Part shown: piece after piece, positions 25,489-28,541 of the stretch
How the letters are laid out: each line of letters opens with the position of its first letter
Position numbering within the stretch: the first letter of the stretch is position 1
DNA from: Mesorhizobium sp. B2-4-3
Lineage (GTDB): Bacteria; Pseudomonadota; Alphaproteobacteria; Rhizobiales; Rhizobiaceae
Direction of reading: 5' to 3'
Assembly: GCF_006442815.1 (NCBI RefSeq)
Contig: NZ_VFVL01000015.1
Location: forward strand, 62,001-126,000
Length of the DNA: 64,000 nt
The notes under the pieces: model-generated
What the model saw: the letters and a program-made list of their open reading frames with translations, nothing else
What the model was told of the DNA's origin: nothing
Database searches by the model: none
Translations under genes and position numbers: made by a program

Positions 25489-25722
25489 GCTTTCCCCCGA
25501 AGCCTGGTCATTTCCTCAGCCGGAACAGCCAAACCGTTGACGGGGCGGCATTTTCCGATTCGGCCTTCTTTGTGACGCAGGCGTGAATGGCCGTTAATGT
25601 TGCATTGCACAATTTGCATTGCTGCCATGCGCCAACGGCACTTTTAAACCGATATGATCCGACCTATTTTCTGTTCGTACACAAACGGAATGATCCGAAC
25701 CAAAGACGAAACGAGAACTACC

Positions 25723-25863
25723 ATGAACCTGATCCGCAACTACCGCAACTGGCGCCGCTACCGGGACACCGTCTCCGAGCTGAGCCGCCTGTCGAACCGT
25801 GAACTGACCGACCTCGGCATCAGCCGCAGCGACATCCACTACGTCGCCCGCAAGGCGGTCTAA
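25723..25863 (+). CDS. DUF1127 small protein, copy A
   Basis: 46-residue basic protein; the ATG at 25723 is chosen because the family begins here (MNLIRNYRNWRRYRDT). The YjiS-like DUF1127 pattern W..YRDTVSEL.RLSNRELTDLGISRSDI is complete. Small arginine-rich DUF1127 proteins of alphaproteobacteria are stress-induced, and CcaF1 of Rhodobacter sphaeroides is an RNA-binding member co-transcribed with CCUCCUCCC-motif sRNAs. The same arrangement is present here. Confidence 0.9.
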   Translation: MNLIRNYRNWRRYRDTVSELSRLSNRELTDLGISRSDIHYVARKAV

Positions 25864-25914: not shown

Positions 25915-26055
25915 ATGAACCTGATCCGCAGCTATCGTAACTGGCGCGTCTACCGCGACACCGTTACCGAGCTGGGTCGGCTTTCGAACCGCCAGCTCCA
26001 TGATCTCGGCATCGTTCGCGACGAGATCAAGATGGTCGCCCGCAAGGCGATCTAA
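25915..26055 (+). CDS. DUF1127 small protein, copy B
   Basis: Second 46-residue DUF1127 protein, too short for most ORF calls: MNLIRSYRNWRVYRDTVTEL, then GRLSNRQLHDLGIVRDEI and a C-terminal VARKAI. It is a tandem duplicate of copy A, 51 nt downstream, with many identical positions but several changes in the C-terminal half (SDIHYV versus DEIKMV), so it is a diverged rather than recent duplication. A purine-rich site (GAAGAGAG) precedes it. It lies 13 nt before the first CCTCCTCCC-loop hairpin. Confidence 0.9.
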   Translation: MNLIRSYRNWRVYRDTVTELGRLSNRQLHDLGIVRDEIKMVARKAI

Positions 26056-26068
26056 CCAGGAATTTCGC

Positions 26069-26179
26069 CAGGGTCGACCTCCTCCCCGACCCTGACGGAT
26101 ACGGCCAACCCTCACCTCCTCCCGAGGGTTGACCACCAAAACGGCGCCCGCCGGACCTCCTCCCCCGGCGGGCGTTGTT
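26069..26179 (+). ncRNA. CcsR/cuckoo-type small RNA, unit A
   Basis: Three consecutive hairpins, each with the loop ACCTCCTCCC. Stem 1 is CAGGGTCG/CGACCCTG (26069-26094), stem 2 is CAACCCTC/GAGGGTTG (26106-26131) and stem 3 is CGCCCGCCGG/CCGGCGGGCG (26145-26174), followed by TTGTTC, which makes it terminator-like. The conserved CCUCCUCCC loops and the position after DUF1127 genes define the alphaproteobacterial CcsR ('cuckoo') family. In Rhodobacter these RNAs are cut from the DUF1127 transcript and act in stress adaptation. No promoter was identified between copy B and this unit. Confidence 0.85.
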
Positions 26180-26183
26180 CAGA

Positions 26184-26223
26184 AGCGAACGAAGTTCGTC
26201 TTCAGCGAACGAAGTTCGTCTTC
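26184..26223 (+). repeat. Perfect 20-nt tandem duplication between the two sRNA units
   Basis: AGCGAACGAAGTTCGTCTTC occurs twice head to tail (26184-26203 and 26204-26223). Each copy contains a small palindrome CGAAC-GAA-GTTCG. It is followed by AGGGG-TTTCGC-CCCCT (26225-26240), another small hairpin. Confidence 0.85.
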
Positions 26224-26259
26224 CAGGGGTTTCGCCCCCTCTAAAAGCGAAAGAGATTT

Positions 26260-26377
26260 CGTCAGAGCCGACCTCCTCCCCGGCAATGACGAATAAGGTC
26301 GATCTTCACCTCCTCCCGAGGATCGACCCCCAAAACGACACCCGCCGGACCTCCTCCCCCGGCGGGTGTTGTTGTTT
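26260..26377 (+). ncRNA. CcsR/cuckoo-type small RNA, unit B
   Basis: Second copy of the three-hairpin array, again with loop ACCTCCTCCC in every hairpin. Stem 1 is GCCG/CGGC with outer CGTCA/TGACG (26260-26291), stem 2 is an 11-bp stem beginning GGTCGATC (26297-26328, one G-U pair) and stem 3 is ACACCCGCCGG/CCGGCGGGTGT (26338-26369), followed by TGTTGTTT as a terminator. Stems 1 and 2 differ in sequence from unit A but keep pairing (for example GAGGGTT versus GAGGATCGACC), so base pairing and loop are under selection. Confidence 0.85.
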
Positions 26378-26453: not shown

Positions 26454-27863
26454 ATGAGCAAAAATCCCGTACACGTCATCGGCGGCGGCCTCGCCGGCTC
26501 CGAAGCCGCATGGCAAATTGCGCAAGCCGGCGTTCCGGTCGTACTGCATGAAATGCGCCCGGTGCGCGGCACCGACGCCCACAAGACCGACAGCCTGGCC
26601 GAGCTCGTATGCTCGAACTCCTTCCGCTCCGACGACGCCGAAAACAATGCGGTCGGCCTGCTGCATGCCGAAATGCGGCTTGCCGGCTCGCTGATCATGA
26701 GCGCCGGCGACGCCAACCAGGTTCCGGCCGGCGGTGCGCTGGCGGTCGACCGCGACGGCTTTTCCGATGCAGTTACCGCGAGGATCGAAGCGCATCCGCT
26801 GATCGCCATCCGGCGCGAGGAAGTGCCGGGACTGCCGCCCGAGGATTGGGACCAGGCGATCATCGCCACCGGCCCGCTGACCGCACCCTCGCTGGCGCAG
26901 TCGATCGCGGAAGCCACCGGCGCCGATGCGCTGGCCTTCTTCGATGCCATCGCGCCGATCATCCATTTCGACACGATCGACATGGAGACCGCCTGGTTCC
27001 AGTCGCGCTACGACAAGGTCGGTCCCGGCGGCACCGGCAAGGACTACATAAACTGCCCGATGGACAAGGAGCAATATCTCGCCTTCGTCCAGGCGCTGCT
27101 CGACGGCCAAAAGACCGAGTTCAAAGAGTGGGAAGGCACGCCCTATTTCGACGGCTGCCTGCCGATCGAGGTGATGGCCGAGCGCGGTGTCGAGACGCTG
27201 CGCTACGGGCCGATGAAGCCGATGGGGCTGACCAATGCCCACAATCCGACGGTCAAGGCCTATGCAGTGGTGCAACTCCGGCAGGACAATGCGCTGGGCA
27301 CGCTCTACAACATGGTCGGCTTCCAGACCAAGCTGAAGCATGCCGAGCAGGTGCGCATCTTCCGCACCATCCCCGGCCTTGAAAACGCGGACTTCGCGCG
27401 TCTCGGCGGCCTGCACCGCAACACCTATATCAACTCGCCGACGCTGCTCGATCCGTCGCTGCAGCTGAAATCGCGGCCAGGCCTGCGTTTCGCCGGCCAG
27501 ATCACCGGCTGCGAAGGCTATGTCGAAAGCGCGGCAATAGGCCTGCTCGCCGGCCGCTTCGCCGCCGCCGAACGGCTCGGCCAGACGCCCTCGCTGCCGC
27601 CCTCAACCACCGCCTTCGGCGCACTGCTCAACCACATCACCGGCGGCCATATCGTCTCCGACGACGAGCCCGGCAAACGCTCCTTCCAGCCGATGAACGT
27701 CAATTTCGGTCTGTTCCCACCCGTGGAAGCACCGAAGACCGAAGGCAAGCGTCTGCGCGGCAAGGACAAGACCGTCGCCAAAAGGCACGCCATCACCTCC
27801 CGCGCCCTGGCTGAATGCAGGGCATGGTTGGGGCTGCCGGGCAGAGCTGAGGCAGCCGAATAA
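26454..27863 (+). CDS. trmFO: Methylenetetrahydrofolate-tRNA-(uracil-5-)-methyltransferase TrmFO
   Basis: Flavoenzyme that makes ribothymidine-54 in the tRNA T loop using methylene-THF. 469 residues from the ATG at 26454; the frame runs open upstream through the sRNA region but that is not coding. Visible are the FAD dinucleotide motif [12 protein letters not shown], the [13 protein letters not shown] segment with the conserved cysteine, [24 protein letters not shown], and the C-terminal FAD-binding [20 protein letters not shown]. Only weak ribosome-site sequence precedes the start. Confidence 0.96.
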
Positions 27864-27881: not shown

Positions 27882-27924
27882 CCATGCATATAAAGTAGGA
27901 TATCATCCCACTTTATATGCATGG
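27882..27924. promoter_or_regulatory. Long palindrome, probable ParD operator
   Basis: Perfect 15-bp arms (27882-27896 and 27910-27924; CCATGCATATAAAGT and its complement) flank a centre with further GGAT/ATCC symmetry. It overlaps the possible first parD start codon and part of its GGAG ribosome site, as expected for an autoregulated toxin-antitoxin operator; the AT-rich arms could also hold the -10 element. Confidence 0.75.
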
Positions 27925-27934
27925 AGCGATGTCA

Positions 27935-28237
27935 ATGGAATCTGCCGAGAAACTATCCATCACCGTCACGCCTGCCATGGCGCGCATGATCCGCGAGAAA
28001 GTCGAGGACGGGTCTTTCGGCTCCGCCAGCGAAGTCGTCCGCGCAGCGCTCCGCGCCTTCCAGCGCGAAGAGGAAGAGCATGCCGAGCGAATGGCATCGA
28101 TCCGGGCGCGGGTGAGGGCTTCGATCGAAGATAAAAGACCAGCCGTCCCACTCGACGAAGCAATCGACCGGGTAAAGAACCGAATTTCACAGCTGGCGCA
28201 AGGCCATGATGATCCAGCGCCTCGCCGTCGTTCTTAG
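27935..28237 (+). CDS. parD: ParD-type antitoxin (ribbon-helix-helix)
   Basis: About 100 residues. The ATG at 27935 has GGAG 9 nt upstream; ATGs at 27917 and 27929 are in frame and cannot be excluded. The N-terminal ribbon-helix-helix is KLSITVTPAMARMIREKVEDGSFGSASEVVRAALRAF, the classical ParD/CC2985 pattern, followed by a charged helical tail that would wrap the toxin. The gene overlaps parE and follows a 43-bp palindrome that it presumably binds. Confidence 0.88.
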   Translation: MESAEKLSITVTPAMARMIREKVEDGSFGSASEVVRAALRAFQREEEEHAERMASIRARVRASIEDKRPAVPLDEAIDRVKNRISQLAQGHDDPAPRRRS

Positions 28238-28541
28238 CGAAAACGCGATCTCCGATCTCGAAGCGATTGGCAGCTACATCCTTGAGAAAGGCGGCAGCGA
28301 AAACGTCGCCAATGGCTTCGTGGATCGGGTTAGAAAGCGCTGCGAAAGCATCGGCAATGCACCTCGCGGCGGCCGCTCGCGCGATGACATCGCGCCCGGA
28401 CTGCGAACCGTCCCTTTCGAACATTCTGCGGTCATCACCTATGTTGTCGAGAGCGATGTCGTTCTCATACTCAACATCTTCTACGGCGGCCGCGACTACG
28501 AGACATTGATGCGCGACGGTGGTTCTGGCGATCCATCCTAA
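28206..28541 (+). CDS. parE: ParE-type toxin (RelE/ParE superfamily)
   Basis: 111 residues (ATG at 28206 or the next codon at 28209). It has a RelE/ParE fold: SENAISDLEAIGSYI, VDRVRKRCESIGNAPRGGRSRDDIAPGLRTVPFEH, and a C-terminal VVLILNIFYGGRDYETLM. Characterised ParE proteins poison DNA gyrase. Overlaps the antitoxin gene by 32 nt. Intact, so the module is probably functional. Chromosomal ParDE pairs are accessory, and this one is inserted between trmFO and the hydroxylase operon. Confidence 0.88.
   Translation: MMIQRLAVVLSENAISDLEAIGSYILEKGGSENVANGFVDRVRKRCESIGNAPRGGRSRDDIAPGLRTVPFEHSAVITYVVESDVVLILNIFYGGRDYETLMRDGGSGDPS

Follow-up and report, generated by a model that had tools for sequence, protein, structure and literature searches.

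The window, that is, the whole stretch of 64,000 nucleotides of Mesorhizobium sp. B2-4-3 DNA that was analysed, carries two short DUF1127 genes that are directly followed by two similar small RNA units. The features of this locus are listed below by their position in the window and their strand.

25606..25628, + strand: composite LsrB/VtlR-type box TGCACAATTTGCATTGCTGCCAT, predicted from a sequence match
25641..25669, + strand: candidate -35/-10 pair, CTTTTAA-N16-CTATTT, inferred from a weak but genus-conserved match
25723..25863, + strand: DUF1127 small protein 1, 46 aa (PF06568, E 4.9e-17)
25915..26055, + strand: DUF1127 small protein 2, 46 aa (PF06568, E 7.3e-15)
26060..26180, + strand: ar14 sRNA unit 1 (RF02344, 90.7 bits, E 3.6e-15, model 1-123; fold)
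26077-26086, 26114-26123 and 26155-26164, + strand: loops of the three hairpins of unit 1
26181..26252, + strand: inter-unit spacer, whose length differs among relatives
26253..26374, + strand: ar14 sRNA unit 2 (RF02344, 90.8 bits, E 3.4e-15, model 1-123; fold)
26271-26280, 26308-26317 and 26349-26358, + strand: loops of the three hairpins of unit 2
26454..27863, + strand: GidA-type gene, a flank outside the sRNA locus (PF01134, E 1.1e-99)

Unit 1 starts 5 bases after the stop codon of the second DUF1127 gene (26055). Within the spacer, two exact 20-nt copies of AGCGAACGAAGTTCGTCTTC lie head to tail at 26184-26223. The GidA-type gene 3' of the array is most likely trmFO, and downstream of it there is a ParD/ParE-type toxin-antitoxin pair at 27917-28541.

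In an Rfam covariance search, both units matched the RF02344 model over its full length with scores above the curated gathering score of 58.8. Judged by sequence, both belong to ar14, a small RNA family of which Sinorhizobium NfeR1 is the founding member. The earlier note had placed two three-hairpin units with identical loops at 26069-26179 and 26260-26377, which was correct to within a few bases. It had also proposed a cuckoo-type locus related to CcsR, and this was right in kind, as RNAs with CCUCCUCCC loops lie directly 3' of the DUF1127 genes; the precise family, however, is ar14, and the CcsR1 covariance model (RF02791) reached its gathering score nowhere in the window.

The genome contains four ar14 units, each with three exact loops, and these loops account for 12 of the 48 genomic CCTCCTCCC sites. 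One of the two copies outside the window (C2:105910-106028) is found 3' of a gene that resembles a regulator and encodes a periplasmic-binding-protein domain. The other (C10:101177-101292; L006 2478-2593, - strand) lies between a phasin gene, which it follows, and a tRNA gene, and it scored 32.8 with the CcsR1 model RF02791, for which the cut-off is 65.3. Its position after the phasin gene suggests a possible co-transcription with this polyhydroxybutyrate granule gene. No DUF1127 gene was found beside either copy; the genome has eight DUF1127 matches, all of them elsewhere.

The 9-mer CCTCCTCCC was found six times in the window, always on the + strand (starts at 26078, 26115, 26156, 26272, 26309 and 26350), and nowhere else in it, where 0.62 copies are expected from shuffles. 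The base before each copy is A, and each of the six loops reads exactly ACCTCCTCCC. In line with the earlier note, RNA folding placed all six 10-mers in hairpin loops; the z values against shuffles were -6.5 for unit 1 and -9.9 for unit 2. The predicted hairpins span 26064-26099, 26103-26134 and 26140-26179 in unit 1, and 26258-26293, 26297-26328 and 26334-26373 in unit 2. The stems had been called complementary; pairing is indeed kept overall, but a 2x2 internal loop interrupts hairpin 1 of unit 2, and hairpins 1 and 2 of unit 1 have one mismatch each. The third hairpins had been called terminator-like, and they are very stable with 15 pairs in both units, but their T tails are poor (TTGTTC and TTGTTGTTTCT). 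The terminator scan accepts loops of up to 8 bases, and these hairpins with their 10-base loops lie outside its reach.

The ar14 family was present in all 61 genus genomes searched and in 63 of 199 genomes sampled from the order. We read 31 DUF1127-linked arrays in the genus, including that of the window; two units were counted in 19 of them and three in the other 12, which gives six to nine loops per array. The DUF1127-linked tandem layout is the usual arrangement in this genus. Over the 31 loci, 218 of 222 loops were exact, and the mean pairwise difference was 0.015 in the loops compared with 0.175 in the stems. The four degenerate loops (in L038, L040, L051 and L054) all belong to the third hairpin of the last unit. 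That the breaks are confined to this final terminator-like hairpin hints at a weaker constraint there.

When the order-wide alignment was folded as a consensus, the third hairpin alone was recovered, since the first two stems do not align properly from one family to another; the genus alignment was therefore used for covariation. In this alignment of 64 distinct units, 93% of the cells were paired, a figure favoured by the structure having been taken from one aligned sequence. The earlier note had set compensatory stem changes across relatives as the test by which its reading could be refuted. Such changes are present: 17 of the 37 pairs changed on both sides, which was equalled in none of 500 shuffles. 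The covariation score was 0.227, compared with 0.135 +/- 0.005 in shuffles, which ignore relatedness, and at most 0.082 in slid-partner controls, which do not.

The box upstream of the DUF1127 genes, TGCACAATTTGCATTGCTGCCAT, is composed of TGCA-N6-GCAT (25606-25619) and an overlapping GCAT-N3-TG-N3-T. It is reported that LsrB activates the NfeR1 promoter at TGCA-N6-GCAT (PMC10746234). GCAT-N3-TG-N3-T is the proposed VtlR box, and VtlR directly activates atu1667 in Agrobacterium, the orthologue of BAB1_0914/BAB2_0512 (PMC7486931). DUF1127 genes are also activated by VtlR in Brucella (PMC12595884), and LsrB and VtlR are names of the same regulator in different genera (PMC11975290). By sequence match, TGCA-N6-GCAT stands 109-120 bases ahead of the start codon of the first DUF1127 gene in each of the 31 genus loci; L046 and L049 differ in its inner bases but keep its arms. 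Each half of the box alone is common by chance, but only two composite boxes were found in the 6.2 Mb of the genome, both near DUF1127 genes. At a comparable distance from a third short DUF1127 gene lies TGCACAAAACGCAT. The second composite box (G000:C77, L087, 1501-1523, - strand) is separated by about 110 bases from another DUF1127 gene, which is on the opposite strand. The box points away from that gene, and within about 150 bases beyond the box lies a strong hairpin that carries a T run (GCCGGACTGC...GCAGTCCGGCTTTTTATTTT); this hairpin has no Rfam match and may be an unlisted LsrB/VtlR-controlled sRNA.

A sigma-70 scan found no promoter. The candidate -35/-10 pair CTTTTAA-N16-CTATTT agrees with the published ar14 promoter CTTAGAC-N17-CTATAT at 9 of 13 positions, which is a weak match. 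The pair lies after the box, at a spacing that resembles that of NfeR1.

Taken together, we consider it very likely that this is a DUF1127-ar14 locus activated by LsrB/VtlR, in which redundant anti-Shine-Dalgarno loops repress the translation of several mRNAs. Our results directly support the family membership, the predicted structure and its covariation, the constancy of the loops, the linkage to DUF1127 and the conservation of the box; transcription, co-transcription with processing, LsrB/VtlR binding and the targets are what we infer. The LysR-type regulator LsrB/VtlR would switch on a promoter 5' of the two DUF1127 genes, and their transcript would run into, or be processed to, the two ar14 sRNAs. 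The three identical CCUCCUCCC loops of each unit would serve as redundant antisense seeds, and by homology with NfeR1 they most likely pair with purine-rich ribosome-binding sites. Several mRNAs would in this way be kept from translation under nutrient or stress conditions.

It was documented that NfeR1 silences ntrB at the translation start through anti-Shine-Dalgarno seeds, and that its three motifs are redundant (PMC10746234). In the present genome, the likely start of ntrB has only GGAG upstream and no strong complement, so that this NfeR1 target, the best documented one, does not evidently recur here; ntrB was rejected as a target. The complement GGGAGGAGG lies 3-10 bases before an ATG at nine genomic places, compared with two for a scrambled motif and one for the reversed control; such perfect sites were not taken as target evidence, since Shine-Dalgarno bias alone can explain this difference. 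A phbB-like gene was likewise rejected, as its perfect site was found in 1 of 61 genus genomes, namely this one.

Three other roles were weighed against repression in trans. The hairpins follow the DUF1127 stop codon immediately (5 bases) and the third ones are very stable, as would suit a role mainly in cis, in which they would stabilise or attenuate the DUF1127 mRNA and shield the downstream gene as an array of terminators, with regulation in trans secondary. A terminator or stabiliser, however, does not need near-invariant nine-base loops amid changing stems; moreover, two further ar14 copies exist without DUF1127 and NfeR1 acts in trans (PMC10746234), so that we regard a mainly cis role as improbable. 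To a similar degree we doubt that the RNAs compete for the ribosome or for Shine-Dalgarno pairing in general, lowering global translation without selecting particular mRNAs. The loop does contain CCUCC, the 16S anti-Shine-Dalgarno core, and is repeated six to nine times per array, but the conserved 9-mer is longer than this core, the scarcity of GGGAGGAGG before ATG would make strong pairing selective, and the published NfeR1 targets are specific mRNAs.

Repeated identical loops could also act as a sponge for an RNA-binding protein such as the DUF1127 product, in the manner of CsrB-type RNAs, which titrate CsrA. The DUF1127 protein CcaF1 of Rhodobacter is described as binding RNA and affecting CcsR maturation (PMC10253847). 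NfeR1 loop mutants, however, lose antisense repression of ntrB (PMC10746234), and the DUF1127 proteins of Agrobacterium and Salmonella act through proteins (PMC12501420), which makes such a sponge very improbable. The preferred reading, translational repression by redundant loops, may be extended to a Mesorhizobium-type operon in which LsrB/VtlR couples two DUF1127 proteins to an ar14 array whose unit number (two or three, hence six or nine loops) evolution has adjusted, and with it the strength of a general anti-Shine-Dalgarno response; we find this extension unlikely.

Compared with known systems, the locus is an unexceptional and well-conserved example of a family already described, and the existing picture of ar14 is unchanged. 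Rhizobial sRNAs with three hairpins and identical CCUCCUCCC loops were reported in 2011 (PMC3927594). The earlier note had seen in three loops per unit a high valency for purine-rich targets; this is no peculiarity of the present locus, as three hairpins with identical CCUCCUCCC anti-Shine-Dalgarno loops are the published definition of ar14 (PMC10746234, PMC3927594). At the level of the transcript, the family is characterised by a stable RNA of about 123 nt that does not depend on Hfq and represses its targets in trans. NfeR1/SmelC397 of Sinorhizobium meliloti shares with our units the length, the three hairpins and their loops, as well as variable covarying stems, several copies per genome and the TGCA-N6-GCAT box. 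NfeR1, on the other hand, has been described as a 123-nt transcript with its own promoter, whereas here two tandem units lie behind two DUF1127 genes and the ntrB site is not evident.

According to PMC10253847, the CcsR RNAs of Rhodobacter share a transcript with the DUF1127 gene ccaF1, and tandem copies behind a DUF1127 gene are found in CcsR1-4 and more widely in cuckoo/CIN1 loci. As defined there, cuckoo/CIN1 RNAs have CCUCCUCCC loops and lie 3' of a short DUF1127 gene, as is found here. CcsR1-4 (RF02791) and the cuckoo/CIN1 RNAs of Rhodobacter and other alphaproteobacteria have in common with our array the loops, the tandem copies and the position directly 3' of DUF1127. They differ in that the window stays below the CcsR1 gathering score and the known Rhodobacter promoter depends on RpoHI/RpoHII; the Rhodobacter RNA RS0680a also has two loops (PMC3927594). 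Processing by RNase E is a further mark of CcsR1. AbcR1/AbcR2 (ar15) are likewise rhizobial tandem sRNAs with anti-Shine-Dalgarno seeds under LsrB/VtlR control, but they form a different family without an Rfam match in the window, and their motifs are similar, not identical (PMC10746234). Our analysis shows a well-characterised sRNA family at a DUF1127 locus in a genus where little work on this family has apparently been done; the conserved predicted LsrB/VtlR box and the unit count across the genus appear to be the new detail. A single regulator, LsrB/VtlR, is predicted for the small proteins as well as the sRNAs, which joins the work on VtlR and DUF1127 with that on LsrB and NfeR1.
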